A stretch of 33,401 nt of DNA. Origin: a virus. Below, in pieces: positions 3,935-25,559 of this stretch (position 1 is its first letter; each line of letters opens with the position of its first letter). Below the pieces are notes generated by a model. The model was not told the origin of the DNA. It made no database searches and was given only the letters and a program-made list of their open reading frames with translations. The translations under genes were made by a program, and so were the position numbers. The stretch spans positions 1 through 33,401 of IMG/VR virus record IMGVR_UViG_3300032286_000463; one strand, written 5' to 3'.

Positions 3935-5392
3935 ATGAAAAACCCTATTAAAATTGCAGCATCTTTACTACTATCATTTATGTTTATGATTTCTGCACCA
4001 ATGGCTTTTGCAAACACTACCAATGAGTATAATCAAAAGGTAGCAGAGGCACAGGCAAAGATTAATGATTTAAAAAATCAATTAGATAATGCTCAGGCAA
4101 ATCTTGACAGTTGGATGAACTCGTCTAACGAGCAAGCAAATCTAATTAACAATGCTCAGTCAGCAGCAACTCAGGCAAAAGATGCATTAGAGCAAGCCGC
4201 TAATAATTACGCACTTACCAAGAACAATTATGATTCTTGGTATAATGAGGTTGCCATTGCAGAACAAAAAGTCGCAAATGCAGTTAATGAAGTTCATACT
4301 GCTGCAGACATGGTAGATACTACATATAATAATTATCTTTTGGCACAAAACAATGCAGATAATGCTCAAATTCAAATGAGTCAGGCACAAATCGATTATG
4401 ATACTAAATTAATCAATGATGGAGGTAACGGTAAAAATGCCGCTGGCTTAGTCGTTGATGTTTACACAGGCATTTCTAGTCGAGGAAACCCACCACAAAA
4501 ATCAGATATTGTTTATACCAAATGTAAAACAACTACTGTAACAAACATTGATGCCAACTGGGGTGGTGGAGATATCTTTGGCTGTGGTTCTGACTATGTT
4601 ATGCTTCATTACCGTGGCTACATTACTTATCCAACAACTACTAAAGTTTACTTCCAGGCTCCTGCCGATGATGGTTTTTACATGTCTATTAATGGAACTC
4701 AAATTATCAACGACTGGTCTCTAAAGGGTTGTGGAGCAAACTCAACAGGCTTATTTTCCTTCACTGGTGGAAAATCCTACGCTATTGACGCTTGGTTCTA
4801 TGAATGGAATGGAGGTGCTTGCTCTAGTCTTACTTACAAGCCAATGACTTCTGGTTCATGGCAAGTAGCACCAGCATCATTCTTTACTCAGGGTGCAGTG
4901 GCAAACCTAATAAAAGACCCATCACTTCTTGTTATATTAAACAACAAGATTGCTTCTTATGTTCAAGCGGTAGCGGTAGAAGAACAGGCTAATGAAGTAT
5001 ATTTAAATGCAGAATATAACTATGATGGCAAATACTTAAACTATATAATGCTAAGTCAGGACTTGTCTAATAAAAATTCTACATTAAATCAATTAGAAAA
5101 TCTAACAACTGATTCTGAAAATAATTGGCAAACATGTGCTGATGACAAGGCTGTAAAAGATGCAGAACTTCGTGATTTAAAAGCACAGTATAATTCTACT
5201 TTTGTTGGTATTGAAACTGCTGCATTAAGGGTAGATGATTTAGAAGCAAAACTTGCACAAGCAAAAATAGATTTAACAAACATTCCAAAGCCAACTGCGG
5301 CTGAAAAGAGAAAACCGAAGAAGGTGACACCAAAACCTATGGCTGATGGAGCATATGTGCCTAGACCTACGTTTGCCCCTATCCCAAAATAA
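3935..5392 (+). CDS. Secreted coiled-coil protein with a PA14-like domain
   Basis: A 485-residue protein. The ATG at 3935 is chosen because AGAGGAGA lies four bases upstream and a textbook signal peptide follows (basic MKNPIK, hydrophobic LLLSFMFMI, AMAFA-type cleavage near 26). The longer upstream start would bury this signal. Residues 30-160 are Ala/Asn/Gln-rich heptads. About 171-318 is PA14-like, with YRGYITYP, FQAPADDGFYMSING and several cysteines, the pattern of carbohydrate-binding PA14 domains. About 335-455 is helical again, and the tail is Pro/Lys-rich. The TAA stop is preceded by C CCA AAA, and the reading frame appears to continue in -1. A glycan-binding exported protein is inferred. 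Confidence 0.8.
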   Translation: MKNPIKIAASLLLSFMFMISAPMAFANTTNEYNQKVAEAQAKINDLKNQLDNAQANLDSWMNSSNEQANLINNAQSAATQAKDALEQAANNYALTKNNYDSWYNEVAIAEQKVANAVNEVHTAADMVDTTYNNYLLAQNNADNAQIQMSQAQIDYDTKLINDGGNGKNAAGLVVDVYTGISSRGNPPQKSDIVYTKCKTTTVTNIDANWGGGDIFGCGSDYVMLHYRGYITYPTTTKVYFQAPADDGFYMSINGTQIINDWSLKGCGANSTGLFSFTGGKSYAIDAWFYEWNGGACSSLTYKPMTSGSWQVAPASFFTQGAVANLIKDPSLLVILNNKIASYVQAVAVEEQANEVYLNAEYNYDGKYLNYIMLSQDLSNKNSTLNQLENLTTDSENNWQTCADDKAVKDAELRDLKAQYNSTFVGIETAALRVDDLEAKLAQAKIDLTNIPKPTAAEKRKPKKVTPKPMADGAYVPRPTFAPIPK

Positions 5393-5435
5393 TTCCCCCA
5401 AAGGAATTTGAGGAAAATCCAATCTCAAATATTCC
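5383..5435 (+). promoter_or_regulatory. Candidate programmed -1 ribosomal frameshift site
   Basis: Zero-frame codons are ATC CCA AAA TAA. The heptamer C CCA AAA (5383-5389) fits X XXY YYZ and abuts the stop. Slipping back one base gives CCC AAA ATA and opens 90 more codons. Two alternative hairpins follow: AATTCC/GGAATT (5391-5396 with 5403-5408), and a 10-bp stem GGAATTTGAG (5403-5412) with CTCAAATATTCC (5424-5435, two-base bulge), 13 bases after the slip site. Confidence 0.65.
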
Positions 5436-5661
5436 AGGGCTGGGGGCAGTATTCAGTGGACTGAGCGATGCTTTCAATGCATTGTCAAACATCGGTGCTG
5501 ACTTACCTCCAGCGGTTCGTGAAAAGGCAGAGAAGATTGTGGTATCAGCGATTATTGTGACTCAGATTGCAACACAGGCAGCAGCAATGGCTACTCAAGC
5601 AGCAGCGGCAGCCAGTGCATCTGCATCAGGCTCTGGTAGTTCAGGTAGGAGGAAAACATAA
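5389..5661 (+). CDS. C-terminal extension of the PA14 protein read in -1 frame
   Basis: From 5389 the -1 frame is open for 90 codons to TAA 5659-5661. It opens with IIPPKEFEENP, continuing the Pro-rich tail of the upstream protein. It then has a helical region (IPGLGAVFSGLSDAF), a VREKAEKIVVSAIIV helix, an Ala/Thr/Gln stretch, a Ser/Gly tract and GRRKT. No ATG, GTG or TTG with a ribosome binding site lies near its start; the first TTG is about 30 codons in. The next gene starts on its stop (TAATG), which suggests it is translated. A 575-residue fusion is predicted. The alternative is a real or sequencing frameshift. Confidence 0.7.
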   Translation: MIPPKEFEENPISNIPGLGAVFSGLSDAFNALSNIGADLPPAVREKAEKIVVSAIIVTQIATQAAAMATQAAAAASASASGSGSSGRRKT

Positions 5662-5840
5662 TGAAAGATTTTTTGAACGATATGATAAATCAACTATGGA
5701 CTTTGTTAGGCATGTTTGTTGCATGGGTAGTCTTAGAAGGTTCAGCAAAAACAGTTGTAGGCTATTGCATTTTAGGTAGCACTGTCTTGTGGGGATTAAC
5801 TTACAGACTGAGAAATCCAAAAGACAAGGAGGAAGAATAA
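5661..5840 (+). CDS. Holin-like small membrane protein
   Basis: A 59-residue protein with two hydrophobic segments (about 12-27, LWTLLGMFVAWVVLEG; and 31-47, TVVGYCILGSTVLWGLT) and a charged tail RNPKDKEEE. A strong AGGAGG (5647-5652) lies eight bases upstream, and the start overlaps the preceding stop. Actinophages commonly encode short proteins of this type beside lysis genes. With the next gene it forms a likely holin or lysis-regulator pair; which of the two forms the pore cannot be told from sequence. Confidence 0.75.
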   Translation: MKDFLNDMINQLWTLLGMFVAWVVLEGSAKTVVGYCILGSTVLWGLTYRLRNPKDKEEE

Positions 5841-6133
5841 TGAGACTATTTGGTAATGTATTTATGCGTATTGTTGCTACTTTTGTTGCTTCTGCACTTG
5901 GTGTAGTTGGTGCTGGTAGCGTAGCAAGCGGTATTAGTGGTATCGAGATTCCTATTTGGTTTAGTGCTGTAATGGGCGGTATCTTAGCAGTAGCAAAGGT
6001 AGTAGAGTTACTAGCCTTAGCATTCCTTGAAGATGGCAAACTATCTCGTAATGAGATTAATGCTGCTTTCCGTCAGACTATTGCTCTTAAAGATGTAGCA
6101 CAGGATGATGAGACATCTAAGCCTAAGAAATAA
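5840..6133 (+). CDS. Holin-like membrane protein
   Basis: A 97-residue protein starting MRLFGNVFMRIV at 5840, chosen because AAGGAGG (5826-5832) is seven bases upstream and the start sits on the preceding stop. A more upstream in-frame ATG at 5789 lies inside the previous gene. Two hydrophobic segments (about 10-32 and 38-62) are followed by LEDGKLSRNEINAAFRQ, a polar C-terminal motif I associate with actinophage membrane proteins near lysis cassettes. The tail is charged. A terminator hairpin follows seven bases after the stop. Confidence 0.78.
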   Translation: MRLFGNVFMRIVATFVASALGVVGAGSVASGISGIEIPIWFSAVMGGILAVAKVVELLALAFLEDGKLSRNEINAAFRQTIALKDVAQDDETSKPKK

Positions 6134-6439: not shown

Positions 6440-6511
6440 TGGGCATTAACTCAGTTGGCAGAGTGTTCGACTGTTAATCGTTGATTCCAGATTCGAGTTC
6501 TGGTAGCCCAG
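6440..6511 (+). tRNA. tRNA-Asn (GTT)
   Basis: A cloverleaf can be drawn: acceptor TGGGCAT with TAGCCCA (two mismatches at the inner end), D arm ACTC/GAGT, anticodon loop CTGTTAA with GTT, and T arm CCAGA-TTCGAGT-TCTGG. The lower anticodon stem also has two mismatches, so this is a somewhat degenerate phage tRNA. Confidence 0.75.
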
Positions 6512-6944: not shown

Positions 6945-6970
6945 AATACATCTTGAAAGGAAGTATTAAT

Positions 6971-7462
6971 ATGCCAGAAGCAATTTATGTAGAGCCATTC
7001 CCGAAGAATAAGCGTGGAGATGGATTTAAGAACATGGCTTCATACCGAACAAATCCACACCGTGGAGTTGACTGGTCTGTAGCAGGTGGTAGCAAGATTA
7101 AGGCTATCACAGGAGGAACAGTGTTAGAAGTAGGAGAGACTAAGGTGTTGGGAAACTACCTAATCCAGTCAACCTATGACGGTCACTTTATTCTGTATGC
7201 ACACTTTCAGGTTCCATCAACACTAAAACAGGGTGACAAGGTAGAGGCAGGTAAGACAATCGTTGGTCTAGTTGGAACAACAGGTACCGCATCAACTGGA
7301 AATCATTTGCACGTTACCTATGGAACTGTAAAGAACCTAATCACTGCTGATATTAGCAAACTAAATGACTTGTTTGCAGTACTTGATGCAGCACCTAAAA
7401 AGTCTGTTGCAGCCAAGGTTGTTACAGCAGTAAAGAAAGTTGTTCCTACTAAAAAGGCGTAA
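6971..7462 (+). CDS. M23 (LytM-type) zinc endopeptidase, probable endolysin
   Basis: A 163-residue peptidoglycan hydrolase. The ATG at 6971 has GAAAGGAAG seven bases upstream; a TTG 18 bases earlier is less likely. The M23 zinc site is complete: His30 and Asp34 in NPHRGVDW and His114 in NHLHV, with catalytic His112 and His78 in LYAHF. Strands of the beta-barrel (GTVLEVGET, GDKVEAGKTIVG) are in the usual order. A Lys/Val-rich basic tail ends the protein. There is no signal peptide, so holin release fits, with the holin-like genes just upstream. M23 enzymes cut cross-linking peptides. A virion-associated hydrolase is the alternative. Confidence 0.88.
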   Translation: MPEAIYVEPFPKNKRGDGFKNMASYRTNPHRGVDWSVAGGSKIKAITGGTVLEVGETKVLGNYLIQSTYDGHFILYAHFQVPSTLKQGDKVEAGKTIVGLVGTTGTASTGNHLHVTYGTVKNLITADISKLNDLFAVLDAAPKKSVAAKVVTAVKKVVPTKKA

Positions 7463-10222: not shown

Positions 10223-10639
10223 ATGGTAATCTATACAGACCCATTCGCAGCACTTAGTCAGGAATTTGATAAGATGCTTGCAACACCAGGAGTACACAGA
10301 GTTGGCTCCACATACCCACCATATAACGTAATTCACTCAAAGGACAAGAATGAATGGTATCTTGAATTCGCTCTTGCAGGATTTGAGAAGGATGACGTAA
10401 CCATCACAACAGACAAGAACATTCTGACTATTGCTGGTGAAACAAAAGAAGATAAAGACCTTCCAGAAGATATCCGTTATGTTTATAAGGGTATTGCTGG
10501 TCGTAAATTCACTCGTTCTTTTACTCTGCCAGAATATGCTGAAGTCGCTAACGCTGAACTAAAGCATGGCATTCTAACTATTGATTTAGTTATTGATATT
10601 CCAGAGGAAAAGAAACCTAAAACAATTACTATTAAGTAA
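10223..10639 (+). CDS. hsp20: Small heat shock protein (Hsp20/IbpA-like)
   Basis: A 138-residue holdase chaperone. The alpha-crystallin domain spans roughly 28-125: YPPYNVIHSKDKNEWYLEFA, LAGFEKDDVTITTDKNILTI, a GIAGRKFTRSFTLPEYAEV strand and the closing GILTIDLVI. A short KKPKTITIK tail carries an I-x-I-type motif used in oligomer assembly. Phages, notably marine T4-like ones, sometimes carry hsp20, probably to protect proteins during infection. It has its own promoter and strong ribosome binding site and stands alone, suggesting separate control. Confidence 0.93.
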   Translation: MVIYTDPFAALSQEFDKMLATPGVHRVGSTYPPYNVIHSKDKNEWYLEFALAGFEKDDVTITTDKNILTIAGETKEDKDLPEDIRYVYKGIAGRKFTRSFTLPEYAEVANAELKHGILTIDLVIDIPEEKKPKTITIK

Positions 10640-14004: not shown

Positions 14005-15033
14005 ATGAAAAAAGCATTAATAACAGGTATAACTGGACAGGATGGCTCTTACTTAGCAGAACTGCTACTTGAAAAGGGTTATGAGGTTCATGGTATTAAG
14101 AGACGCTCATCGTCTTTTAACACTGAAAGAGTAGATTATATTTACGAAACAAGTAAAAACTTTTACTTACATTATGGAGACCTAACTGATTCAACTAATC
14201 TTATTAGATTAATTAGTGAAATAAAGCCTGATGAAATATATAACCTTGGTGCTCAGTCCCATGTTCAGGTTTCATTTGAAACTCCAGAGTACACCGCAAA
14301 TAGCGATGCTATGGGCACTCTACGCCTCCTAGAAGCCATTAGAATACTAGGTATGGAAAATACTGTACGTTTTTATCAGGCTTCTACATCCGAGATGTTT
14401 GGACTGGTTCAAGAGATTCCTCAAAAAGAAACTACACCATTCTATCCTCGTTCTCCGTATGGAGTAGCAAAATTATATGGTCATTGGATTACTAAAAACT
14501 ATCGTGAAGCATATGGAATGTATGCATGTAGCGGTATTCTTTTTAACCATGAATCTCCAAGACGTGGAGAAACATTTGTTACTCGTAAGATTGTTTTAGG
14601 ATTAGATGCAATATCTAAAGGCAAACAATCAGTATTAAAATTAGGTAACTTAAATGCTTTGCGAGACTGGGGTCATGCAAAAGATTTTGTTCGTGCTATG
14701 TGGCTAATGCTTCAGCAAGATACGCCAGATGACTTTGTTATTGCTACTGGAGAACAATACTCAGTCAAGCATTTTGTAGAAGAATCTGGAAAACACTTTG
14801 GAATGAACATTGTTTGGCAGGGTAGTGGACTAAATGAAATAGGTATCGATACAATTACAGGGAATACTATTATTGTTGTAGATAAAAAATATTTTAGACC
14901 AGCGGAAGTTGAAACACTTCTTGGTGATGCAACCAAGGCTAAAAATATCTTAGGATGGGTTCCAGAAATATCATTTGAAGAACTAGTAGAAGATATGTGC
15001 GTAACAGAAAGAGATTTTAATGTCATTAAATAA
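14005..15033 (+). CDS. gmd: GDP-mannose 4,6-dehydratase
   Basis: A 342-residue short-chain dehydrogenase/reductase that converts GDP-D-mannose to GDP-4-keto-6-deoxy-D-mannose. The NADP-binding loop is [11 protein letters not shown] (7-17). The active site shows STSE (127-130) and Tyr152-x3-Lys156 in [30 protein letters not shown] is the typical substrate-binding block. The length matches the family. It opens a sugar-nucleotide and glycosyltransferase operon; GDP-mannose must come from the host, since no manB or manC is seen. Confidence 0.95.
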
Positions 15034-16042
15034 ACTAAAATTATTTCATTATACAATGCATCAAGGAGTTTTAGATGACGTTGCTGCTATATTTGCAAAT
15101 ATTAAAAATATAGAAGTTAAAAGTTTTTCACCTATAAACAAGCAGCATGAAAATTATATTATAAGTCACGATAGGGCTAAGGTTCTTTGGGAAGAACATA
15201 AAGAAGATTTTTTAAATTCAGACATTTTATTCTTTTCAGATAATGGTGCATCTTTTAGACCAGTGCTAGAAAATATGAATAAAATTAAAGATACCCAAAA
15301 AATTTTTGTATGGTTAGTTCATAGATTTGATTACGCTAATTACGGTGACACTGATTTTTATAACTTGTTGCTAAAATATAAAGACGATAAAAGAATTACA
15401 TTTTTATATGCAAATAATTATGAAAAAAAGTACATGAATGAAAAATTAGGAAACAATTTTCAAGATATGAAATTCTTTACTTTTTATGGCAAAAGAAATA
15501 AAAAAGATTTTAATTTAAAAAATCAAGAGGACCATAAAAATAAACTATTTGTTATGAATTATCAAAATGAAAAAGACTTTTATCCACTTTATGAAAACTT
15601 AAAACAACTTGGAATAGATTTTTATACAAGAACCTATGTTCCGAGAGAAGATTTTGCTGGTCCTTTTGACATAGAGACCTGTTCTGCCATATTACATATT
15701 CCATATATGGTTAGCACAGTTGCCCAAAGAGAGTACATGTCATTGGGAAAAACTTATATTTTGCCTACTGAAAGTTGGATAGCAAAAAACAATGTTAATT
15801 ATCCATTAATATGGCATGAAGCAGGGCACGGATTATTGCAATATAGCGAATTTTATAAAGAAGAAAACAAAGATTTGTTTGTATACTTTGATGACTTATC
15901 AGAAATTCCAGAAATATTGGAAAACAAAGAATTATTAATTGAAAAAGGTAAAAAATGTTTTGAAAGAACAGAGACTGATAGACAAAACAATATTGCTCTT
16001 TTAGAAAACATAATTTTTCAGAATGAAAGGTTTGAGGTTTAA
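15020..16042 (+). CDS. Probable glycosyltransferase (unassigned, GT-B-like)
   Basis: A 340-residue protein overlapping gmd by 14 bases. No sharp catalytic motif was found. The layout of alternating strands and helices, ending in the segment [19 protein letters not shown] and a helical region, is compatible with a GT-B sugar transferase. Context between gmd and fcl supports a role in the same glycan. The gene is markedly more AT-rich than gmd and fcl, suggesting separate acquisition. Confidence 0.5.
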
Positions 16043-16043
16043 A

Positions 16044-16994
16044 ATGATTTTACCAATGAAGTTAGATAGTAAAATTTTTGTTGCTGGTCATAATGGTTTA
16101 GTTGGGTCAGCAATTGTTCGTAAATTAAAAGAACAAGGATATACAAACATTATTACTATGCCAAAGAGCAAACTTGATTTGCGTGACCAGAAGATGGTTG
16201 CCTGGTTTTTCTCCGTGTATAAGCCAGAGTATGTATTCCTGGCTGCTGCAAAAGTTGGCGGTATTAACTACAACAAGGTAGCACCTGCAGATTTTATCTA
16301 TGATAATCTACAAATTCAGAATAATGTTATTCATAATGCTAATAAGTATAATGTAACTAAATTATTATTCCTTGGCTCTGCCTGTATCTATCCTAAGATA
16401 ACTCCACAACCAATAAAGGAAGAGTATCTTCTTAGTGATTACCTTGAGCCAACCAATGAGGGCTATGCTCTTGCAAAGATTGCTGGACTTAAGATGTGTA
16501 ACTACTACCGCCAGCAGTACGGATTAACTGCAATCTCCCTGATACCAGCAAACCTGTATGGTGTCAATGATAATTTTAATATTGAACAGTGCCATGTCAT
16601 TCCAGCAATGATTGATAAGTTTGTTAAAGCAAAGGAAACAGGAGAGTCTGTTACATTGTTTGGAGATGGGTCTCCGACAAGAGAGTTTCTGTATGTTGAT
16701 GACTTAGCAGAAGCGTGTATTTTCTTGATGAATACATACGATAGCCCAGAGCATATCAACATCGGCTCCTCCGAAGAATACACAATCCTTGAATTGGCAA
16801 ATCTAATTGCAGACAAGGTTGGATTTACTGGTGACATTATTTGGGACACAGAAAAGCCAAATGGTACACCAAAACGTAAATTAGATATATCTAGACTGGA
16901 GTCTTTGGGTTGGAAATCTAGCATTGCCTTAGATGAAGGCTTGACAAGGACTGTTGACTGGTATCTAGAGACTGGTGGCAAACGTAATGCGTAA
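16044..16994 (+). CDS. fcl: GDP-L-fucose synthase-type epimerase/reductase
   Basis: A 316-residue enzyme starting at ATG 16044, with GAGG six bases upstream. It is predicted to act on GDP-4-keto-6-deoxymannose by 3,5-epimerisation and NADPH reduction. The cofactor loop is GHNGLVGSA. Ser112, Cys114, Tyr141, Lys145 and His184 appear in GSACIYP, YALAK and QCHVIPA. These correspond to Ser107, Cys109, Tyr136, Lys140 and His179 of E. coli Fcl at a constant offset. LEPTNEGYALAKIAG is the family hallmark. A ColC-like colitose synthase is homologous and cannot be excluded, given the next gene. Confidence 0.92.
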   Translation: MILPMKLDSKIFVAGHNGLVGSAIVRKLKEQGYTNIITMPKSKLDLRDQKMVAWFFSVYKPEYVFLAAAKVGGINYNKVAPADFIYDNLQIQNNVIHNANKYNVTKLLFLGSACIYPKITPQPIKEEYLLSDYLEPTNEGYALAKIAGLKMCNYYRQQYGLTAISLIPANLYGVNDNFNIEQCHVIPAMIDKFVKAKETGESVTLFGDGSPTREFLYVDDLAEACIFLMNTYDSPEHINIGSSEEYTILELANLIADKVGFTGDIIWDTEKPNGTPKRKLDISRLESLGWKSSIALDEGLTRTVDWYLETGGKRNA

Positions 16995-18141
16995 TTGGAA
17001 ACTGATGGAACAGACTATCACAAAACTTGATAGATTAAAGTTGGCATCATTTGTTCTGACCGCAGACCAATTTACCAATGGTAAAAAGGTTAAAGAGTTT
17101 GAGAAGCAATGGAGTGAGTGGCTTGGATGTAAGTATTCTCTTTTTGTTTCTTCTGGTAGCACCGCAAATTTTTTGCTTGTTGCTGCTATTAAAGAAAAAT
17201 ATAATCTAAAAAACGGTGATAAAGTTGTTGTTCCAGCATGTACTTGGGTAACTAACGTTGCACCAATTATCCAGTTGGGCTTAGAGCCAATCTTTTGTGA
17301 TATCAATATGGATAACTACAGTTTTGATATAGACAACCTTAAAAAGATAAAAAAGCAACATCCAGATGTAAAGATGATTTTTGTTACACACCTACTTGGG
17401 TTTACTGCAGACAATAAAGTTTACAGTGATATTTTTCCAGAGGCACTAATCATTGATGATGTCTGTGAATCTCATGGATGTAGGGATGCTGATGGCTACA
17501 AGGTAGGTGCAAACAGCCTTGGGGCTACTTTTAGTTTTTATTTTGGACATCATATGACCACCATTGAGGGCGGTATGGTATCGACCAATGATGCAGAACT
17601 ATACGACCTAATGAAAATGAAACGTAGTCATGGAATGGCTAGGGAGTCTATTAATTCTGATAAATATGCGGAACAATATCCAGACATTCAACGTTCATTC
17701 TTGTTTATTACAGATGGGTACAATTTTAGAAACCATGAAATTTGTGCGGTATTGGGGCTTGAACAACTAAAAAGATTAGACGCTATGATTGATAAACGTA
17801 GAGAAAACTACAATGCTTTTATCGAACTAATTAAGCAATACGATGACTTATTCTATATTTCAGGAGATAATCCAGGAAACAGTAGTTTTTGTTTTCCAAT
17901 TATAGCAAAAACAAAAGAAACCTATGATAAATTTGTGGTGCTGCTTAAAGAGCATAATATAGAATATAGACCAGTAGTTGGCGGAAATTTGCTGAGACAT
18001 CCATTCTTAAAAGGATATAGGTTAAATAAGAAAAACTCTAATGCAGATATTATTAATGACAATGGAGTGTATTTAGGAAATAGTCATTTTGTTAATAATA
18101 AACAAATTAAATTACTTGGAAAAATATTAAAGGAATTATAG
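16987..18141 (+). CDS. DegT-fold sugar 3-dehydratase, ColD-like (active-site His)
   Basis: A 384-residue PLP-fold enzyme started at ATG 16987. VSSGSTANFLL and ACTWVTNVAPI are typical DegT/DnrJ/EryC1 blocks, and IDDVCESHG holds the PLP-ring Asp. Where aminotransferases have the PLP lysine, this protein reads FSFYFGHHMTTIEGGM. The first His (188 from this start) replaces the Lys, as in GDP-4-keto-6-deoxymannose 3-dehydratase (ColD, His188) and the E1 dehydratases. It should thus remove the 3-hydroxyl rather than add an amino group. It acts on the Gmd product if the substrate matches. The end block YRPVVGGNLLRH also fits ColD. Confidence 0.8.
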   Translation: MRNWKLMEQTITKLDRLKLASFVLTADQFTNGKKVKEFEKQWSEWLGCKYSLFVSSGSTANFLLVAAIKEKYNLKNGDKVVVPACTWVTNVAPIIQLGLEPIFCDINMDNYSFDIDNLKKIKKQHPDVKMIFVTHLLGFTADNKVYSDIFPEALIIDDVCESHGCRDADGYKVGANSLGATFSFYFGHHMTTIEGGMVSTNDAELYDLMKMKRSHGMARESINSDKYAEQYPDIQRSFLFITDGYNFRNHEICAVLGLEQLKRLDAMIDKRRENYNAFIELIKQYDDLFYISGDNPGNSSFCFPIIAKTKETYDKFVVLLKEHNIEYRPVVGGNLLRHPFLKGYRLNKKNSNADIINDNGVYLGNSHFVNNKQIKLLGKILKEL

Positions 18142-18890
18142 TGCCAATTTCATTCAATAGTTTAGGAAACTATGGAAGATTAGGAAACCAGATGTTTCAA
18201 TACGCAGCCCTAAAAGGTATTGCTAATAAAATAAACACTAATTATATTATTCCAGAGTCAAACAATGAAATGTCTTCTCAACAATTAACAGATATTTTTT
18301 TATTAAATAATAATGTTGGATATGGAATAACAAACTATAAACAGGTGCAAGAACTTGATTTTAAATATGATAATTTATTTATACAAACAATAACGGATAA
18401 TACTGATATAAAAGGATATTTTCAATCTGAGAAATATTTTAAACATATTGAGCAAGACATTAAAAATGATTTTACATTTAAACAAACATATTCCATTCCA
18501 GACAAAAAATATGTTTCAATACATGTTAGACGCGGAGACTATTTATTGTTGCAAAATTATCATCCAACATGCTCTATAGATTATTATAAAAATGCTATGA
18601 CTCTATTTCCAAATCATAACTTTCTAGTTATTTCTGATGATATTAATTGGTGCAAAAATCAAGAAATTTTTGCTAATTGTGAGTTTTGGGAAGGTAAAAA
18701 CATTGCTCACGACCTATATGTTATGACAAAAGCAGAACACAATATTATTGCAAATAGTAGTTTTAGTTGGTGGGGTGCTTGGTTAAATCAAAATGCAGAT
18801 AGGATTGTTGTGGCACCAAAACAATGGTTTGGTAATGCAATTCAAAACGATACAAAAGACCTGTATTGTTTTGGCTGGATAATTCTATGA
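18141..18890 (+). CDS. GT11 alpha-1,2-fucosyltransferase-like enzyme
   Basis: A 249-residue glycosyltransferase using GTG at 18141 (overlapping the previous TAG, AAAGGA upstream). It carries GT11 motifs: GRLGNQMFQYA (12-22), the GDP-binding HVRRGDY (128-134) and NSSFSWWGAWL (205-215). GT11 enzymes transfer L-fucose from GDP-fucose in alpha-1,2 linkage to galactose, giving the H-antigen disaccharide; colitosyltransferases are close relatives. Slightly short for the family. Donor genes lie immediately upstream. Its AT content is high compared with gmd. Confidence 0.9.
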   Translation: MPISFNSLGNYGRLGNQMFQYAALKGIANKINTNYIIPESNNEMSSQQLTDIFLLNNNVGYGITNYKQVQELDFKYDNLFIQTITDNTDIKGYFQSEKYFKHIEQDIKNDFTFKQTYSIPDKKYVSIHVRRGDYLLLQNYHPTCSIDYYKNAMTLFPNHNFLVISDDINWCKNQEIFANCEFWEGKNIAHDLYVMTKAEHNIIANSSFSWWGAWLNQNADRIVVAPKQWFGNAIQNDTKDLYCFGWIIL

Positions 18891-18896
18891 TATAAT
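18888..18896 (+). promoter_or_regulatory. Extended -10 promoter inside the glycan cassette
   Basis: TGATATAAT (18888-18896) overlaps the GT11 stop. An AT-only inverted repeat AAATAT (18899-18904) / ATATTT (18912-18917) follows, then GGGAG before the GTG at 18938. Confidence 0.5.
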
Positions 18897-18937
18897 TAAA
18901 ATATCTTAATAATATTTAAAATAAGGGAGATAATGAA

Positions 18938-19888
18938 GTGAAAAAAAAATTTGTAATATGGGGACATCCATTACACACACACACCCATTCATATATTCAT
19001 AATGGATACTATAAAGCACTAAATGCTTTGGGATATGATGTAGTTTGGTTAGAAGATAACGAAGAAAATTCTAATGGAGATTTTGAAAATTGCATCTTTA
19101 TTACAGAAAAACAAGTAATGAGATTTATGCCTGTTACAAATTCATCAGTTTATTTAGTTCATAATCTTTATGGTCACGATGTTTTCAGTTCAGATTTTAA
19201 TAGATTTGCTGGATTACCAGCAAATTTTTATAATTTTTTAGTTTACCATGAAAACTACGACTGGAATGATGAAGTAGAAAAGATTAGTGACACATTATGG
19301 TGGCATCAAAAAAATAAAACTTTTGTAACAATGTGGGCAACTGACCTACTACCATATGAAATAGACCTTCTAGAACCAGTTTTATATGATGCAAATAGAG
19401 AAAACATTAATTTTGTTGGAAGTATCCAAGGAACAAATATTCAAGATTTTGCAAAAATATCTGAAAACAATGGAAAGAAATTTCAACATTTTGGTGGCTA
19501 TGGAAGATTAGAACACACAGTACTCGATGAAGAAAACTATACATCACATTTTTATAATGAAAACTCTGCTATTAATGTAATTAGAAATTCTTATATTTCT
19601 TTTGACATAAGAGAAGGTGGTCATCAAACTAATGGATATAATTCTTGTAGATTATTTAAAAATTTAAGTTATGGAATGCCAACTGGAACAAATGCGGTAA
19701 AAAGTAAAATATTGTTTGGCGACCACATAGTTGCAAATGAAAACTTAAATGACTTATATATTGAGATAGAGGAGTTCTATAAAAATTCTACTTATGACTC
19801 TATTAAAAATTCTATGAACTTTATAAAAGAAAATCATACTTATATAAATAGAGTAAAAGATATACTTTATATTTTAGAAAGAGTATAG
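18938..19888 (+). CDS. Probable GT-B glycosyltransferase
   Basis: A 316-residue protein using GTG 18938, with GGGAG eight bases upstream; the nearby ATG at 18933 is out of frame. It starts KKKFVIWGHPLHTHTHS, with mid-part INFVGSIQG and C-terminal SFDIREGGHQTNGYNSCR and FKNLSYGMPTGTNAVKS, which resembles the donor-binding domain of GT-B enzymes with their Glu-rich end. No family number can be given. Its N- and C-terminal segments recur in the broken copy at 20583-20753. Confidence 0.65.
   Translation: MKKKFVIWGHPLHTHTHSYIHNGYYKALNALGYDVVWLEDNEENSNGDFENCIFITEKQVMRFMPVTNSSVYLVHNLYGHDVFSSDFNRFAGLPANFYNFLVYHENYDWNDEVEKISDTLWWHQKNKTFVTMWATDLLPYEIDLLEPVLYDANRENINFVGSIQGTNIQDFAKISENNGKKFQHFGGYGRLEHTVLDEENYTSHFYNENSAINVIRNSYISFDIREGGHQTNGYNSCRLFKNLSYGMPTGTNAVKSKILFGDHIVANENLNDLYIEIEEFYKNSTYDSIKNSMNFIKENHTYINRVKDILYILERV
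19823..19854 (+). repeat. 32-bp direct repeat, copy 1
   Basis: Identical over 32 bases to 20679-20710. It encodes IKENHTYINRV near the C-terminus of the 18938 glycosyltransferase. Confidence 0.9.
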
Positions 19889-19890
19889 TA

Positions 19891-20586
19891 ATGCAAAATA
19901 AAAAAATTTGTATTATAAACATTGCAACCAACAAATATATTAAATTTATAGAACCTCTTTGGGAATCTATTAATAATAATTTTTTAAAAGATTGTGTGGT
20001 AGAATCTTTATTATTTACAAACCATGACATAAAACCAATTACTAAAAATGGAAAAGTTTCTAAAATTGAGCATGAACCATTTCCTACACCAACATTAATG
20101 AGATATCATTATATTAATAGCGAATCGGATTATTTAAAACAATTTGATTATTGTTTTTACTTAGATGCAGATATGCTTATTGAAAGTAAAGTTGGTGAGG
20201 AGATTTTAGGAGATTTAGTAGCAATTATTCATCCAGGATTTTTTAACAAAAGCCCCAATGAATTTACTTATGAAAGAAATGAGGCTTCTTTAGCATATAT
20301 TCCTATCGATAATGGGAATAAGTATTATGCTGGAGGTTTTAATGGTGGTACACCAGAACAATTTTTAAAAATGTCTGAAACTATTTTAAAAAACATTGAC
20401 ATAGATAAAAAGAATGATATAATTGCTATATGGCATGATGAAAGTCATCTTAATCGTTATTTGTTGGATAATCCACCAACACTAGAACTTAATCCAGACT
20501 ATTGTTATCCAGAAAGTTGGAACATTCCATTTGAAAGAAAAATATTGGCACTAGATAAAAATCACGAGGAGGTAAGGTCTTTATGA
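19891..20586 (+). CDS. GT6 glycosyltransferase (ABO blood-group transferase family)
   Basis: A 231-residue retaining glycosyltransferase. It is strikingly like the catalytic domain of vertebrate ABO transferases: FYLDADM with DxD (Asp92, Asp94), HPGFF (114-118), FTYERNEASLAYIP, YYAGGFNGG (145-153), IWHDESHLNRYLL (catalytic-type Glu184) and the closing KNHEEVR. GT6 enzymes add GalNAc or Gal in alpha-1,3 linkage to Gal, often requiring an alpha-1,2-fucose, and a GT11 gene lies just upstream. The known bacterial GT6 enzymes I recall have NxN instead of DxD; this one keeps DxD, suggesting metal dependence. A GT6 has been noted before in a cyanophage. Confidence 0.92.
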   Translation: MQNKKICIINIATNKYIKFIEPLWESINNNFLKDCVVESLLFTNHDIKPITKNGKVSKIEHEPFPTPTLMRYHYINSESDYLKQFDYCFYLDADMLIESKVGEEILGDLVAIIHPGFFNKSPNEFTYERNEASLAYIPIDNGNKYYAGGFNGGTPEQFLKMSETILKNIDIDKKNDIIAIWHDESHLNRYLLDNPPTLELNPDYCYPESWNIPFERKILALDKNHEEVRSL

Positions 20587-20753
20587 AAAAAAATATTATA
20601 TGGGGGCAGCCATATTTAAATTTAAAAAAAGATTATTCAAATGCAACGGAACAAAAGATTAGGTTAGCAATGAATTACATAAAAGAAAATCATACTTATA
20701 TAAATAGAGTTAAATCTTTATTTATTGTTTTAGGAGAAAATAATGAAAATTAA
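20583..20753 (+). pseudogene. Internally deleted remnant of the 18938 glycosyltransferase
   Basis: A 56-codon ORF. Its start MKKNIIWGQP matches the N-terminus (KKKFVIWGHP) and its end MNYIKENHTYINRV matches the C-terminus of the 18938 enzyme, while some 260 central codons are missing. The DNA shares a 32-base identical block. This is a decayed duplicate. It overlaps both neighbours and may now only couple translation. Confidence 0.8.
20679..20710 (+). repeat. 32-bp direct repeat, copy 2
   Basis: Second copy of the repeat at 19823-19854, 856 bp downstream, in the remnant gene. A substrate for recombination that would delete the GT6 gene. Confidence 0.9.
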
Positions 20754-21540
20754 TTTTATAACAACGGTAGTAAATAGACCCAAATTTGTTGAAATACAAT
20801 ATTTATTATTTAAAAAATATTGCACTATAGATTTTGATTTTTATGTTATAGATGATTCACATAATAATAATTTGTCAATTGAATTTTACGATATTTGTAA
20901 TAAATACAATATTAATTATATCAAAAAAGAAAGTGTTAATCAAAAATTTACTAATCCAGGAATGAATAATAATCCAAATGATGACTGTGCCCATGCTGTG
21001 CAATGGACATACGACAATATTATTTTTAAAAATATGAAAGATGATTACGTTTTATTTTTAGATTCGGATATGTTTTTGATTGATTATTTTAATCCGATAG
21101 AATACCTAGAAGATTATGTTATGTGTGGATTAGAACAAATTAGGGAAACAGAAAATAAAAATAAATTAGTTGATTATATTTGGAATGGCATAATGTTTTT
21201 TAATATGAAAAAAATGTTAGAAATTAATGATTATCCAGATTTTTGGTGTGGAACAGTTTATGATATTCCTGTAGACGTTGGTGGGCAGTTGCACTTTTTC
21301 ATTAAAAATAATAATTTAAATTGGAAAAAAACTGACGTTTTGTATCCAGAAAAAATATTTAATTATGATGTAAAAGATATAATTGCTAATTTTGAATTTC
21401 ATTGCAATAAAAAATTCTTGCATTTTCATGCTGGAACAAATTGGCATTTAGATTGGAAAAATAAAAAAGATTTAGATTTTAAAAAAGCAGAAGTTTTTGA
21501 AAAAATAATTAATCAATATTTAGGGCATAATGAAAATTAA
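20743..21540 (+). CDS. GT-A glycosyltransferase
   Basis: A 265-residue protein with an N-terminal nucleotide-binding strand MKINFITTVVNRP, a DxD-type motif VLFLDSDMFLID near residue 110, and a C-terminal LHFHAGTNWHLDW where His/Asp residues could coordinate metal or the acceptor. GT2-like in layout; linkage and donor unknown. AGGAG lies upstream. It is very AT-rich and overlaps the next gene by eleven bases. Confidence 0.75.
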   Translation: MKINFITTVVNRPKFVEIQYLLFKKYCTIDFDFYVIDDSHNNNLSIEFYDICNKYNINYIKKESVNQKFTNPGMNNNPNDDCAHAVQWTYDNIIFKNMKDDYVLFLDSDMFLIDYFNPIEYLEDYVMCGLEQIRETENKNKLVDYIWNGIMFFNMKKMLEINDYPDFWCGTVYDIPVDVGGQLHFFIKNNNLNWKKTDVLYPEKIFNYDVKDIIANFEFHCNKKFLHFHAGTNWHLDWKNKKDLDFKKAEVFEKIINQYLGHNEN

Positions 21541-22201
21541 TTTATTAGATATTCCAGTATATTATATTTCTTTAGAAGACCAATATGAAACACATACAAG
21601 AATGAACAATATGTTAACTGAACTTGGTTTTAAAAATATTATAAAGTTTATTGTTCAAAAACATCCAAGTGGCAAAATTGTTGGTTGTGCAGACTCTCAT
21701 GCTCAAATATTTGAAATGAATCCTGAGACTCCTTTCATTATTTTAGAGGATGATTGTTTTTTGAATACAAACTTTGTAGCAGAAATAGACATACCAGACG
21801 ATGCTGATGCTCTATATTTGGGAGTTTCAAGATGGGCACGGTATTGCAATCTTTCTGGAGACTATCTTCATGCAAAACAAAAAGATAAGAACCTGTATCA
21901 GGTCTATAATATGCTGGCTACTCACGCTATCCTATACATCAATAAGGAATATATAAGTAATTGTAAAAGAATAGCAAGATGGTCTGCAAACAAAAATCAA
22001 CATTTAGATATTGGTTTTGCCGAAAGCCATAAATTCTATAATGTTTATTCATTTGATAAACCATTGTTTTATCAAGAAAGTAGCAGAGAGATTACTAATA
22101 AAAACATTAGTAGTTTTAATGGTCATAATGATGCTGCATATCATGGAATTAATGTTTTTTTAAATCAGATGACTGGGTTTTTTCCGCTACCTTTGATGTG
22201 A
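21530..22201 (+). CDS. GT25-like glycosyltransferase
   Basis: A 223-residue protein. VYYISLEDQYETHTRMNNML, KIVGCADSHAQIF and PFIILEDDCFLN follow the pattern of GT25 (LPS/LOS galactosyltransferase and collagen transferase) enzymes: an opening SL..R, the GC..SH block and the E-D-D metal site. GT25 enzymes commonly use UDP-galactose, which the downstream GalE could provide. AT-rich like its neighbours. Confidence 0.75.
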   Translation: MKINLLDIPVYYISLEDQYETHTRMNNMLTELGFKNIIKFIVQKHPSGKIVGCADSHAQIFEMNPETPFIILEDDCFLNTNFVAEIDIPDDADALYLGVSRWARYCNLSGDYLHAKQKDKNLYQVYNMLATHAILYINKEYISNCKRIARWSANKNQHLDIGFAESHKFYNVYSFDKPLFYQESSREITNKNISSFNGHNDAAYHGINVFLNQMTGFFPLPLM

Positions 22202-22207
22202 TATACT
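22199..22207 (+). promoter_or_regulatory. Extended -10 promoter
   Basis: TGATATACT (TGn plus TATACT) directly after the GT25-like gene. The start would be near 22214, 18 bases before the next gene. Confidence 0.45.
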
Positions 22208-22231
22208 TAAAATATAGAGAAAGAATAAGTT

Positions 22232-22924
22232 ATGAAAATTGGGTTAATTATTCCATGGAGAGAGCAACCATCTAGGATAAAAGCCTTTAAAAAGGTCTGT
22301 GAGTGGTACCAGGACAACCTTCCAGAAGCAAAAGTCTATCTTGTAGATAATGGCAATGAAACCTGGGAAATGTCTGCAACAAGAAATCTGGGGGTACGTT
22401 TAGCAGAACAAGACAACTGCGATGTTATTATAATCAATGATGCAGATACAATTCCACAGATAGGTCCGTTGAGAGAGGCTATTAATGATGCTTTTAAAGA
22501 CAATATGATTCATAATCCTTATACTATTTATACCCTTTTTGATAAATCTGAAACTGAATTACATTTAGAAAAAGGTGTTCCTTTAAATAAATTAAAATGT
22601 AGTGTTTTTGCAGATGTTGCCTGTTCTGGAACAATAGTTTTTACACCAAAGGCTTGGTGGGATTTAGGGGGTAATGATGAGAAGTTTATTAAATGGGGAT
22701 ACGAAGATACAGCACAAAATTTAGTTCATTTTGTTATTCATGGAACTAAAATTGTTAAACATACTGGAACTGTGTTTGCCTTTTCACATGAAGTCCAGGA
22801 TAGGTTAGAAAAACCTAGTGAGCAGTTGCTTAAGAATAGAAGTCTTTATAAAAGATATCTTGCTGTTTCAAAGGGTATGAATCCTAAAGAAAATATATTA
22901 GCATTAGTGAAATCAAAAGAATGA
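22232..22924 (+). CDS. GT-A glycosyltransferase (galactosyltransferase-like C-terminus)
   Basis: A 230-residue protein. LIIPWREQPSRIKAF opens the nucleotide fold, VIIINDADTIP carries DxD, and GGNDEKFIKWGYEDTAQNL is the Glu-Asp acceptor/catalytic block seen in galactosyl- and polypeptide GalNAc-transferase-type GT-A enzymes. The composition is less AT-rich than the preceding transferases. It overlaps the next gene (ATGA). Donor possibly UDP-Gal or UDP-GalNAc, by inference from GalE. Confidence 0.78.
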   Translation: MKIGLIIPWREQPSRIKAFKKVCEWYQDNLPEAKVYLVDNGNETWEMSATRNLGVRLAEQDNCDVIIINDADTIPQIGPLREAINDAFKDNMIHNPYTIYTLFDKSETELHLEKGVPLNKLKCSVFADVACSGTIVFTPKAWWDLGGNDEKFIKWGYEDTAQNLVHFVIHGTKIVKHTGTVFAFSHEVQDRLEKPSEQLLKNRSLYKRYLAVSKGMNPKENILALVKSKE

Positions 22925-23154
22925 TAAATAGTAGTTATACTTATACTATGAAGTGTTCGGTATGCGAGGAACAGTTAGTTCCCATTGTTTATGGATTCCC
23001 CACTTATGAGCAGATAATGTCTGCCAAAGAAGACAAGATTGTCTTAGGCGGATTGCCTAGACCTCTTGCTCCAACTCATTTTTGTATTCCTTGTCAGGAA
23101 GAGTATCGTCTGGATGGGGACACTCACACACCCAAGTTTTCTCATAATAACTAA
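22921..23154 (+). CDS. Small zinc-ribbon protein
   Basis: A 77-residue protein if it starts at ATG 22921 (ATGA overlap); an alternative ATG at 22948 would give 68 residues starting MKCSVCEEQ and lies exactly at +1 of a TATACT box (22936-22941). CSVC and CIPC, 46 residues or so apart, make a zinc ribbon around VPIVYGFPTYEQ and IVLGGLPRPL. Similar short proteins occur in bacteria and phages without known role. Confidence 0.72.
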   Translation: MINSSYTYTMKCSVCEEQLVPIVYGFPTYEQIMSAKEDKIVLGGLPRPLAPTHFCIPCQEEYRLDGDTHTPKFSHNN

Positions 23155-23201
23155 TAATTTTTTTACAGTTCCAGTGATGTCCTGTCATGCAGAAACCACA
23201 C

Positions 23202-23573
23202 TTACGCAAGTTGATGCTCTACTATGTTTGACAATTTAATTAGGTATCCTTTAGATGGGTTTGGCTCAATCTTACATTCAATTGGTCTACCACTTTTTTC
23301 TACAACAGCCTTCAAATCTTCGGTGGTAGTGATAACAACCATATTCTCAAGAACAAATGCATAATGAGTAGCCTTGGATACACTAAGACCAGATGGTTTC
23401 CAAGACTGAGAAGCATTATACCAACACTCAGTTTCTATGTATAGGTTGCCTGTTTCTTTCCAACGTTTATCACGCTTAACCTCTACTGTCTCAATAGAGA
23501 GGATATTGGCTACTGTTGCTTCGCCTTGCTGACCAAACTTTAGGTCAATATCAAAATCACTATTTGCTGGCAT
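23202..23573 (-). CDS. PD-(D/E)XK-like nuclease
   Basis: A 123-residue protein. FDIDLKFGQQGEATVANIL provides an early Asp/Glu, VEVKRDKRWKETGNL the E-x-K core, and YIETECW a following acidic strand; together they look like the PD-(D/E)XK nuclease fold common in phage Holliday junction or restriction-like enzymes. The C-terminal part is strand-rich. It is the last gene of a short minus-strand operon facing the glycan cassette. Function as endonuclease is inferred from motif arrangement. Confidence 0.68.
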   Translation of the reverse strand: MPANSDFDIDLKFGQQGEATVANILSIETVEVKRDKRWKETGNLYIETECWYNASQSWKPSGLSVSKATHYAFVLENMVVITTTEDLKAVVEKSGRPIECKIEPNPSKGYLIKLSNIVEHQLA

Positions 23574-23574
23574 A

Positions 23575-23682
23575 TTAAGCCTTAATTAGTTTACGTTTGA
23601 TTGGGTCAAACTTTAGTGGATGCTTCTTAGAAGCCTTACCGTTTTGTCTGTTGCTGTTTCTTGCACCTTTTGCTTTAGCCAT
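23575..23682 (-). CDS. Very small basic protein
   Basis: A 35-residue ORF, MAKAKGARNSNRQNGKASKK and on to the end, rich in Lys, Arg and Asn. A strong AAGGAGG sits about eight bases before its ATG, and it fits exactly between two genes (TGATG overlap upstream, one base before the next ATG). Possibly nucleic-acid-binding. Confidence 0.65.
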   Translation of the reverse strand: MAKAKGARNSNRQNGKASKKHPLKFDPIKRKLIKA

Positions 23683-23867
23683 CAGATGTCCTCCTTAACC
23701 ATTAGCACACCTGTCATCATAGCAGTAAAAATTGCAGCAGAAGTTTCCAGTATAGCAACAGTGAGTGAATTAAATCCTATTGCACTGAACAGAATAAGCA
23801 ACGGTAGTTGTGAACTAAGCCATAGCAATCCCCATGTAATAATAAATGTTAATCTTTGTCTAGCCAT
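23682..23867 (-). CDS. Small two-helix membrane protein
   Basis: A 61-residue protein starting MARQRLTF at 23867 (AAAGG upstream and TAATG overlap). Two hydrophobic helices near 8-32 and 37-57 are followed by the short end KEDI. No family recognised. Confidence 0.65.
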   Translation of the reverse strand: MARQRLTFIITWGLLWLSSQLPLLILFSAIGFNSLTVAILETSAAIFTAMMTGVLMVKEDI

Positions 23868-24049
23868 TAGAACCAACCTTTTCCTTCTTCATCTAAATCT
23901 TGCAATGTTTTAATTAATTTATCAGTCTTTCTAACACCATATCCCATCTGGATAATGTCAAGACCAGACACCTCTACCTCATCACCATCGTCTAATTTAA
24001 CGACATAGGTGCGGTCAGGGTCAATGATAAATCGTATTTTATGTGGCAT
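23867..24049 (-). CDS. Hypothetical protein
   Basis: A 60-residue protein if started at 24049 (MPHKIRFIIDPDRTYVV); a further in-frame ATG at 24064 lies before the -10 box and is less likely. Strand-rich first half (RTYVVKLDDGDEVEVSG), helical second half. A TGCTACAAT box (24063-24055) ends five bases before the ATG, so the message is probably leaderless or nearly so. Confidence 0.6.
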   Translation of the reverse strand: MPHKIRFIIDPDRTYVVKLDDGDEVEVSGLDIIQMGYGVRKTDKLIKTLQDLDEEGKGWF

Positions 24050-24054
24050 ACTTA

Positions 24055-24063
24055 ATTGTAGCA
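24055..24063 (-). promoter_or_regulatory. Minus-strand extended -10 for the 23202-24049 operon
   Basis: Reads TGCTACAAT on the minus strand and would start transcription at or next to the ATG at 24049. It is divergent to the promoter at 24098-24126. Confidence 0.5.
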
Positions 24064-24094
24064 TAAGTTCGGTCGAAAATAAAGAGGCAAAATA

Positions 24095-24126
24095 CGCTTG
24101 ACAAGCAAGCGATTATCCTGTACAAT
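24095..24126 (+). promoter_or_regulatory. Promoter with operator-like palindrome at the -35
   Basis: TTGACA (24098-24103), 17 bases, TACAAT (24121-24126). An inverted repeat CGCTTG (24095-24100) / CAAGCG (24106-24111) overlaps the -35 box. Confidence 0.72.
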
Positions 24127-24159
24127 TAATGTATAAGGTCCATTAAACGATAGGAACGT

Positions 24160-24660
24160 ATGCAAACCTTTTTACCATTTAAGCAGTTCGATAAGTCTGC
24201 ACAAGCCCTAGATAATAAGAGATTAAATAAGCAAGTATTAGAGTGTTACCAGATTCTTAAGGTGTTGTCTAATGATGACCCACATGCTGCTTGGCGTAAT
24301 CATCCTGCTGTTAAGATGTGGCGTAACCATGAGGGACAGTTATGGCTGTACACTATGGCTATGGTTAAAGAAGCAGATATCCGTGGCATTAAGACTGATA
24401 AGAACGTTAGCAATCTTAATGAACTTAAGGCTGTGGCTGGGGATAGTTGGGGGTATTCAATTACTCCGTGGTCTAAAGACCCTTTCGTAATGTCTAGACT
24501 AACTACTAGCCATAAGGCTAACCTGTATACTAAAGACCCTGTGTATTATTTTGAGTTCTTTAGTGCTTTGGCTACATCTAATCCTTGTTGTCCTGAGCGT
24601 AAAGAACCTTGTAAGTACTACTGGGTTGCACATGACACACAGTTTAAGGTGGCTGCATAA
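24160..24660 (+). CDS. MSMEG_6728-like protein (pyrimidine dimer glycosylase-like family)
   Basis: A 166-residue protein. MQTFLPFKQFDKSAQALDNK, RLNKQVLECYQILKVL, WRNHPAVKMWRNHEGQLWLY and the C-terminal CCPERKEPCKYYW match a small family annotated MSMEG_6728 and sometimes related to pyrimidine dimer DNA glycosylase. A role in DNA repair is suggested by that annotation but not established from sequence. It has its own promoter. The coding strand here is T/G-rich, unlike the A-rich genes to the left. Confidence 0.7.
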   Translation: MQTFLPFKQFDKSAQALDNKRLNKQVLECYQILKVLSNDDPHAAWRNHPAVKMWRNHEGQLWLYTMAMVKEADIRGIKTDKNVSNLNELKAVAGDSWGYSITPWSKDPFVMSRLTTSHKANLYTKDPVYYFEFFSALATSNPCCPERKEPCKYYWVAHDTQFKVAA

Positions 24661-25559
24661 TGAATATTCTTGTTACTGGTGCGGCTGGGTATGTTGGTTC
24701 TCATATTGTTAGGTTGTTGGAAGACACGGAGCATAAGGTAATACTAACTGATTATAGGTTGGACGGTATTGATTTAGCCAATGACTATTTAGATTTAAAA
24801 TCATTGTTTATGAATAATGATATAGATGTTGTTATCCATACTGCCGCTAAAAAGGCGGTAGGTGAATCTGTAGACAATCCAGAGTACTATTATGAACAAA
24901 ACATACAAGGTATGAATAACCTATTGAAAGTTATGAAAGAATATAATGTTAAGAAGATTATTTTTTCATCTTCTGCTGCTGTCTATGGTGTGCAGGGTTC
25001 TGGTATAATTAAAGAAGATAGTGTTTGTGAGCCTATCAATCCTTATGGGGAGACAAAACTTATTAATGAGTGGATGCTATCTAATGGTGCTTCTTGGGGA
25101 TTACAGGCGATTAGTCTGAGATTCTTTAATGTTGCTGGGGCAGGTTGGGAAGACCTAAAAGATACTGGTAATGCTAACTTAATTCCTATTATAGAATCTA
25201 ATTTGGCTAATGGTGTTGCTACAAAGGTTTTTGGCACAGATTATGACACGCCTGATGGTTCTTGTGTTAGGGATTATGTTCATGTTTTAGATGTTGCTAA
25301 TGCACATCTGTTGGCTTTGGATGGCTTTAAAAATGGTCATCAAGTCTTTAATGTGGGTACAGGTAAAGGCTATAGCGTTCTAGAGATATTAAATGCTTTA
25401 AACGCAGATTATGAGGTTGTCCCAAGAAGACTTGGAGACCCATCTAGTTTGTTTGCAGATGTAGGTAAGATTAAGGATACTTTGGGGTGGGAGTCTAAAT
25501 ACACTCTCGAAGATATATTGAACGTAGGAAAGATAAATGAAACTATTAAAGATATTTAA
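24660..25559 (+). CDS. galE: UDP-glucose 4-epimerase
   Basis: A 299-residue SDR epimerase interconverting UDP-Glc/UDP-Gal and possibly the GlcNAc/GalNAc pair. Motifs: TGAAGYVGSH for NAD, HTAAKKAVGESV, SSSAAVYG, Tyr-x3-Lys in NPYGETKLINEW, and RFFNVAGA. It is about 40 residues shorter than E. coli GalE, with trimmed loops but a complete active site. It starts on the previous stop. Donor supply for the GT6, GT25-like and other transferases upstream is the likely purpose. Confidence 0.92.
   Translation: MNILVTGAAGYVGSHIVRLLEDTEHKVILTDYRLDGIDLANDYLDLKSLFMNNDIDVVIHTAAKKAVGESVDNPEYYYEQNIQGMNNLLKVMKEYNVKKIIFSSSAAVYGVQGSGIIKEDSVCEPINPYGETKLINEWMLSNGASWGLQAISLRFFNVAGAGWEDLKDTGNANLIPIIESNLANGVATKVFGTDYDTPDGSCVRDYVHVLDVANAHLLALDGFKNGHQVFNVGTGKGYSVLEILNALNADYEVVPRRLGDPSSLFADVGKIKDTLGWESKYTLEDILNVGKINETIKDI

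Follow-up and report, generated by a model that had tools for sequence, protein, structure and literature searches.

Does the stop codon of a PA14-domain gene in a viral genome simply end one protein, or does it mark a point at which some ribosomes slip back by one base and continue into a second product? The gene lies in the 33,401-base virus record IMGVR_UViG_3300032286_000463, the whole of which was analysed and is called the window here; the PA14 gene and the cassette features located below are on its plus strand. The 0-frame open reading frame (ORF; 3935–5392) starts at the ATG at 3935, encodes 485 amino acids and ends in CCT ATC CCA AAA TAA, such that the slippery heptamer C CCA AAA (CCCAAAA, 5383–5389) is in phase with the ATG and directly abuts the TAA stop codon (5390–5392). 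The tail in the -1 frame (5383–5661) stays open for 90 codons past the shift, up to a stop at 5659–5661, predicting a product pair of 485 residues (0-frame) and 575 residues, the latter with 90 codons added after K485. The tail frame has its earliest ATG, GTG or TTG, a TTG, 99 nt 3′ of the first base of the heptamer, and the tail stop shares one A with the ATG of the next gene (TAATG, 5659–5663). On all of these points, our reading agrees with a preliminary description of the locus, which had proposed that a programmed -1 frameshift extends a secreted PA14 protein whose tail has no usable start of its own.

Across the 41 genes of the window, an in-phase X XXY YYZ pattern occurs at 68 of 7619 codon positions, and the PA14 gene is the sole one with the pattern within one codon of its stop, indicating that the placement of the heptamer is not due to chance. 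Two more in-phase heptamers (TTTAAAA, at 4069–4075 and 5176–5182) are present within the PA14 gene, away from any stop.

The -1 junction and its heptamer recur in related contigs

Relatives were collected from viral contigs in scans that used the PA14 protein, the tail or an alignment of either as query, one of these scans representing the best 80 of 100 relatives, and the locus was found on at least 88 contigs, or 89 with the window. Junctions were read mechanically, by profile searches on stop-to-stop ORFs. The PA14 region and the tail lie in different frames in 50/89 contigs (window included), with a -1 relationship in every one; the two are fused in one ORF of 331–1286 residues in 25/89, and the other 14 loci are cut by contig ends (13 PA14-only and one tail-only). 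Neither a complete PA14 ORF without a tail nor a tail as an independent gene was found among the 89 contigs. Because a search with the tail might favour one arrangement, we also made a tail-blind count from the PA14 alignment alone, which gave 44 frameshifted, 23 in-frame and 13 cut loci among the best 80 of 100 relatives.

Related phages, to which the preliminary description had pointed for conservation of the heptamer, keep it wherever the tail is out of frame: an in-phase X XXY YYZ is present in 50/50 frameshift contigs, directly at the stop in 47 and one codon upstream in three, and every one of the 50 uses TAA as its 0-frame stop. The heptamer is CCCAAAA in 25 contigs, TTTAAAA in 23, AAAAAAA in one and AAAAAAG in one, the last of which also carries CCCAAAA one codon upstream. 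In a tree that holds 44 of these 50 contigs, built from full-length rows with the last 12 residues removed, the first triplet of the heptamer (CCC, TTT or AAA) switched at least five times, or three times when only CCC and TTT rows count, and remained slippery at each switch; recombination could have contributed to some of these changes. Most junctions read AUA AUA or AUA AUU. The first possible ATG, GTG or TTG in the tail frame lies between 21 and 147 nt downstream across contigs and its position is unconserved; these relatives were also searched for the two parts as separate genes, the tail having a conserved start of its own, and none shows this arrangement. An upstream Shine-Dalgarno (SD)-like stimulator was detected in 1/50 frameshift contigs, such an element being optional for -1 frameshifting in bacteria.

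In-frame relatives carry the same protein plan

A PA14 match is present in all 25 in-frame ORFs, although that of L054, which begins at a contig edge, is partial. Alignment of 13 of these relatives shows a common plan of a hydrophobic N-terminus, a coiled coil (in most), the PA14 domain, a linker, the tail module and a basic C-terminus. The linkers contain FN3 domains in L126 and (by Pfam) L055, and are Ala/Glu-rich or Pro-rich in others. In a tree built from 69 PA14 rows (45 frameshift and 24 in-frame, with six short rows left out), a single change divides the frameshift group from the in-frame group (SH-aLRT 93). Together, the 25 in-frame relatives and this single change indicate that the fusion of PA14 and tail is a real protein, to which the frameshift adds a short form. 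Immediately 3′ of the in-frame PA14 gene, L102, L104 and L106 have a nuclease-like ORF, presumably of the staphylococcal-nuclease type.

Selection acts on the tail and on the site

Selection was measured in the 46/50 frameshift contigs with enough codons, 42 of which were left once near-copies had been removed, and dN/dS was taken from pairs with dS of 0.1–1.2. The median dN/dS of the tail, read in the -1 frame, is 0.159 (297 pairs); the final stretch of the PA14 ORF has a median of 0.161 (97 pairs). Measured against expectation, synonymous variation drops to 0.00 at the heptamer and to roughly 0.1–0.7 in adjacent windows, and is about 0.8–1.3 across most of the remaining tail, the junction windows having the lowest values in the 325-column alignment. 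The tail dN/dS and this synonymous minimum indicate translation of the tail in the -1 frame and constraint on the frameshift site at the nucleic-acid level.

A stem-loop is predicted downstream of the heptamer

Folding places a stem-loop 3′ of the heptamer in most relatives. In the window, the predicted stimulatory structure spans 5395–5446, starting 5 nt 3′ of the heptamer after a UAAUU spacer, with a base stem pairing CCCCCA (5395–5400) with UGGGGG (5441–5446) and a predicted inner stem pairing 5403–5412 with 5424–5428 and 5431–5435. The two competing hairpins of the preliminary description are thus better drawn as a single irregular stem-loop with an inner stem. Across contigs, the C-run begins 5 nt past the heptamer in 40/50 and 3–7 nt past it in the others.

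When compared with synonymous-codon shuffles, in which protein and codon usage are preserved, the 62-nt window directly 3′ of the heptamer has a mean z of -3.20 in 42 sequences, with negative values in 42/42, values below -1 in 38/42 and -3.3 for the window gene itself; the mean z at the remaining 28 offsets ranges from +0.5 to -1.2. Dinucleotide shuffles of 12 chosen single sequences gave z values from -0.38 to -4.57 (-1.08 for the window gene). In L052, L090, L092 and L095, the structure 3′ of the heptamer is weak or of a different build (z of -0.58 to -0.78). The base stem is without covariation because its pairs never vary in 33 aligned sequences. For one group of sequences, 5 of 500 shuffles reach the covariation score, and for the other 49 of 500 do so, or 279 of 500 when pairs changed on both sides are scored, such that covariation lends the stem weak support.

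An exported-looking PA14 stalk with a helical extension

The PA14 identity given in the preliminary description is borne out by a Pfam match to PF07691 (E = 6.8e-6; 26.4 bits against a cut-off of 24) over residues 198–284. The 485-residue protein is laid out as a hydrophobic, signal-peptide-like N-terminus, a coiled-coil arm, the PA14 head, a second coiled-coil arm and a disordered basic and Pro-rich end; by its hydrophobic N-terminus alone, it appears to be secreted. An AlphaFold2 model (34 aligned sequences, pLDDT 82) consists of a helix (29–157), a beta head (158–328), a returning helix (329–448) and a disordered end. Among the Foldseek matches to the head are sugar-binding PA14 domains, yeast adhesins and PA14 proteins of uncultured phages. 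PrgA of Enterococcus, a surface protein built as a stalk with a head, is a weak fold match at rank 40 (PDB 6z9l); this bacterial protein is made without a frameshift, and the likeness is one of fold alone. A sequence search of solved structures returned a PA14 match to RsgI3 and otherwise coiled-coil matches only. In a comparison with Rz-like spanins, by profile and architecture, the N-terminus and coiled coil (residues 5–91) match phrog_739 (E = 4.5e-4). In annotated phage records, the PA14 region has partial matches only, to HTVC008M and one faecal phage, such that no annotated relative gave a host or function.

The tail consists of a helical module (IPGLGAVF..NIGADLPPAVREKA..VVSAIIVTQ) followed by an Ala/Ser/Gly linker and a basic C-terminus, the last of which is seen in nearly all of 49 frameshift tails. 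Its best 19-residue hydropathy is 1.63–1.92 in 49/49 tails (that of L056 being too short to score), just above the usual threshold of 1.6, a value reached by 16/25 in-frame relatives. A model of the in-frame relative L105 also shows a helical tail, at a low pLDDT of 67. The sequence and model make a membrane or wall tether plausible, and a membrane role in particular is weakly supported because the hydropathy barely exceeds 1.6. Searches of Pfam and PHROGs assigned the tail to no family and no match to the tail was found in annotated phage records, and a genome-collection search with the tail alignment returned 19 pattern stretches and no relative. A resemblance of ADLPPAV in the tail to an LPXTG-like sorting signal was dropped as too dissimilar.

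The PA14 gene heads a lysis cassette

Directly after the tail, a gene for a small hydrophobic protein (5661–5840; 59 residues, ..QLWTLLGMFVAWVVLEGSAK..) starts within the tail stop, and is followed by a gene for a 97-residue, holin-like hydrophobic protein (5840–6133). The latter matches PHROG 26427, labelled ‘nuclease’, a label that is probably wrong for so strongly hydrophobic and holin-like a sequence. An M23-peptidase endolysin (6953–7462; PF01551, E = 5.8e-17) forms the downstream end of the cassette. Elsewhere in the window, a third tRNA (6440–6511; 42.7 bits against the Rfam gathering score of 29), missed by ARAGORN, adjoins tRNA-Trp and tRNA-Thr; an Hsp20-type small heat-shock protein gene lies at 10223–10639, and several genes for nucleotide-sugar epimerases, aminotransferases and glycosyltransferases make up a glycan-modification cluster at 14005–25559.

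The small hydrophobic protein gene, for which no match was found in annotated phage records, lies downstream in 47/47 frameshift contigs with at least 400 nt of sequence there and in 25/25 in-frame contigs, and a terminase-like gene lies upstream in 10/28 contigs, the window among them. In 44/45 frameshift contigs with the small gene directly after the tail, the start of this gene and the tail stop share 1 or 4 nt; the overlap was left unscored in 5/50, three of them at contig ends and two (L090 and L092) with the small gene about 450 nt further on. An SD-like sequence of its own precedes the small gene in 42/45, and, given this and the start overlap, coupling of the small gene to the frameshift is possible, though not required. 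In L090, the tail and the small hydrophobic gene are separated by an endolysin-like ORF, which we take to be of the CHAP/NlpC type, and a match to this ORF occupies the corresponding position in L092.

Since the PA14 gene stands first in a lysis cassette, a role in host lysis, or in handling of the envelope at lysis, is probable. The gene neighbourhood is the one basis for this role, and an M23 or CHAP-like endolysin is found downstream in 33/34 frameshift contigs with at least 2.5 kb of sequence, as against just 4/9 in-frame contigs.

Weighing explanations for the junction and its product

A sequencing or assembly error that split one gene would fit the 25 relatives with both parts in one frame; the -1 arrangement and its heptamer nevertheless recur in 50 contigs from many metagenomes, with differing heptamer types, and since an error cannot recur in this way, the extra base that the preliminary description had kept in view can be set aside almost entirely. 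We give equally little credence to transcriptional slippage at the A-run, which would produce a mixed mRNA population: every heptamer does have a short A-run, but this amounts to just four A in CCCAAAA and TTTAAAA, runs known to slip in transcription being far longer, and the phased heptamer and the stem-loop spaced 5 nt from it would be left unexplained. Slightly less far-fetched, though still very improbable, is that the tail is a separate gene entered by reinitiation at an AUA or AUU overlapping the UAA. Most junctions read A AUA AUW, in which an Ile codon overlaps the stop, and reinitiation would also couple the genes, yet L095 (ACA GTA ACC) and L096 (GTA ACC CAA) have neither AUA nor AUU at this place, and an SD-like element lies upstream in only one of the 50. 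Moreover, reinitiation explains neither a heptamer kept through whole-triplet changes nor the in-frame fusions. From the comparative sequence evidence, we regard the junction as very probably an evolved -1 programmed ribosomal frameshift site, as had been proposed, all 50 non-fused junctions being -1 with a heptamer zero or one codon before the TAA. The mechanism would be canonical, and the gene appears to be new for -1 frameshifting.

For such a frameshift site, it is conceivable, though we lean against it, that its main effect is on how strongly the overlapping gene for the small hydrophobic protein is translated, with the tail peptide secondary. The overlap of 1 or 4 nt in 44/45 contigs speaks for this reading; against it, purifying selection acts on the tail (dN/dS 0.159), the tail is retained in in-frame relatives, 42/45 small genes have their own SD-like sequence, and the small gene is displaced by about 450 nt in L090 and L092, with the endolysin-like ORF intervening in L090. 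It is less likely again that the protein is a virion part, such as a capsid or tail decoration, and not a secreted lysis protein. PA14 folds are found in phage tail-type and adsorption proteins, and the phage frameshift extensions described in the available sections of PMC5009743 and PMC6316719 sit on virion proteins, but the hydrophobic N-terminus, seen in the window and in most in-frame relatives, and the neighbouring hydrophobic proteins and endolysin argue for a secreted lysis protein.

Discussion

In the mechanism that we propose, ribosomes would translate the PA14 stalk gene to P484–K485 on C CCA AAA, where the UAA in the A site and the stem-loop 5 nt downstream would slow them. Both tRNAs could then slip back by one base and pair with CCC AAA, after which some of the ribosomes would read 90 further codons and produce 575 residues in place of 485. 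Common to the two forms would be the hydrophobic signal for export and a coiled-coil stalk, folded as a hairpin, that bears the PA14 head, of sugar-binding type, at its tip, and the long form would gain the helical, moderately hydrophobic tail with its basic C-terminus. Through this tail, a minor share of the stalks may be anchored to the membrane or to the lysis machinery, the short form being released or free to diffuse in the wall. Shifted ribosomes would also run onto the start codon of the small hydrophobic-protein gene, which overlaps the tail stop, and may set the output of that gene. We hypothesise a division of labour between the short and long forms, whose tether-and-lysis role is tentative and, in our estimate, somewhat short of an even chance. 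A broader and more doubtful reading is that the site acts as a translational switch of the lysis cassette, yielding from one mRNA mostly a soluble exported PA14 stalk together with a fixed, membrane-tethered minority, and delivering slipping ribosomes to the overlapping holin-like gene; one site would then set the ratio of an envelope-binding factor to a lysis membrane protein, having arisen once from a tethered-only ancestor.

The available sections of PMC5009743 describe -1 shifts that give C-terminal extensions of phage virion proteins, in the head and tail of Lactobacillus phage A2, in gene 10 of T3 and T7, and in Listeria phages A118 and A500. The locus resembles these in that a shift in a phage gene gives a second product with a C-terminal extension that is in frame in some relatives; unlike the exported-looking protein here, with its lysis cassette and helical, basic-ended tail, theirs are virion proteins, often with Ig-like extensions. 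In gp17.1/gp17.1* of SPP1, the shift likewise occurs on a proline codon touching a UAA and the extension is 87 residues, but the shift is +1, at CCCUAA, and adds an FN3-type extension to a tail tube protein (PMC6316719, available sections), whereas here it is -1. The -1 shift of lambda gpG/gpGT is similarly conserved across divergent phages (PMC5009743, in the same sections), although gene, location and product differ, and no tail-assembly genes adjoin the PA14 gene, whose neighbours are terminase-like (in the window), small hydrophobic and endolysin genes.

Where available to us, the texts of PMC5009743 and PMC6316719 place phage frameshifts in tail chaperones, in capsid and tail proteins and in A2 cro, and that of PMC10885494 lists lysins with the genes in which frameshifts are said to occur, so that lysis-related frameshifts are not unheard of. 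A literature search, mostly of papers outside subscription, returned no published PA14 or exported phage protein made by frameshifting, and the words frameshift, lysis, PA14, endolysin and holin are all absent from PMC10202952, on isolated phages of freshwater actinobacteria.

Compared with the phage frameshifts in the accessible portions of PMC5009743 and PMC6316719, mostly in tail chaperones and virion proteins, the product here is apparently an exported, lectin-like stalk heading a lysis cassette. Annotations of environmental phage genomes probably list genes of this kind as short PA14 proteins and miss their tails. The in-frame relatives provide a natural comparison and, together with the switches between heptamer types, make this locus an unusually clean case for the origin and upkeep of frameshift sites.
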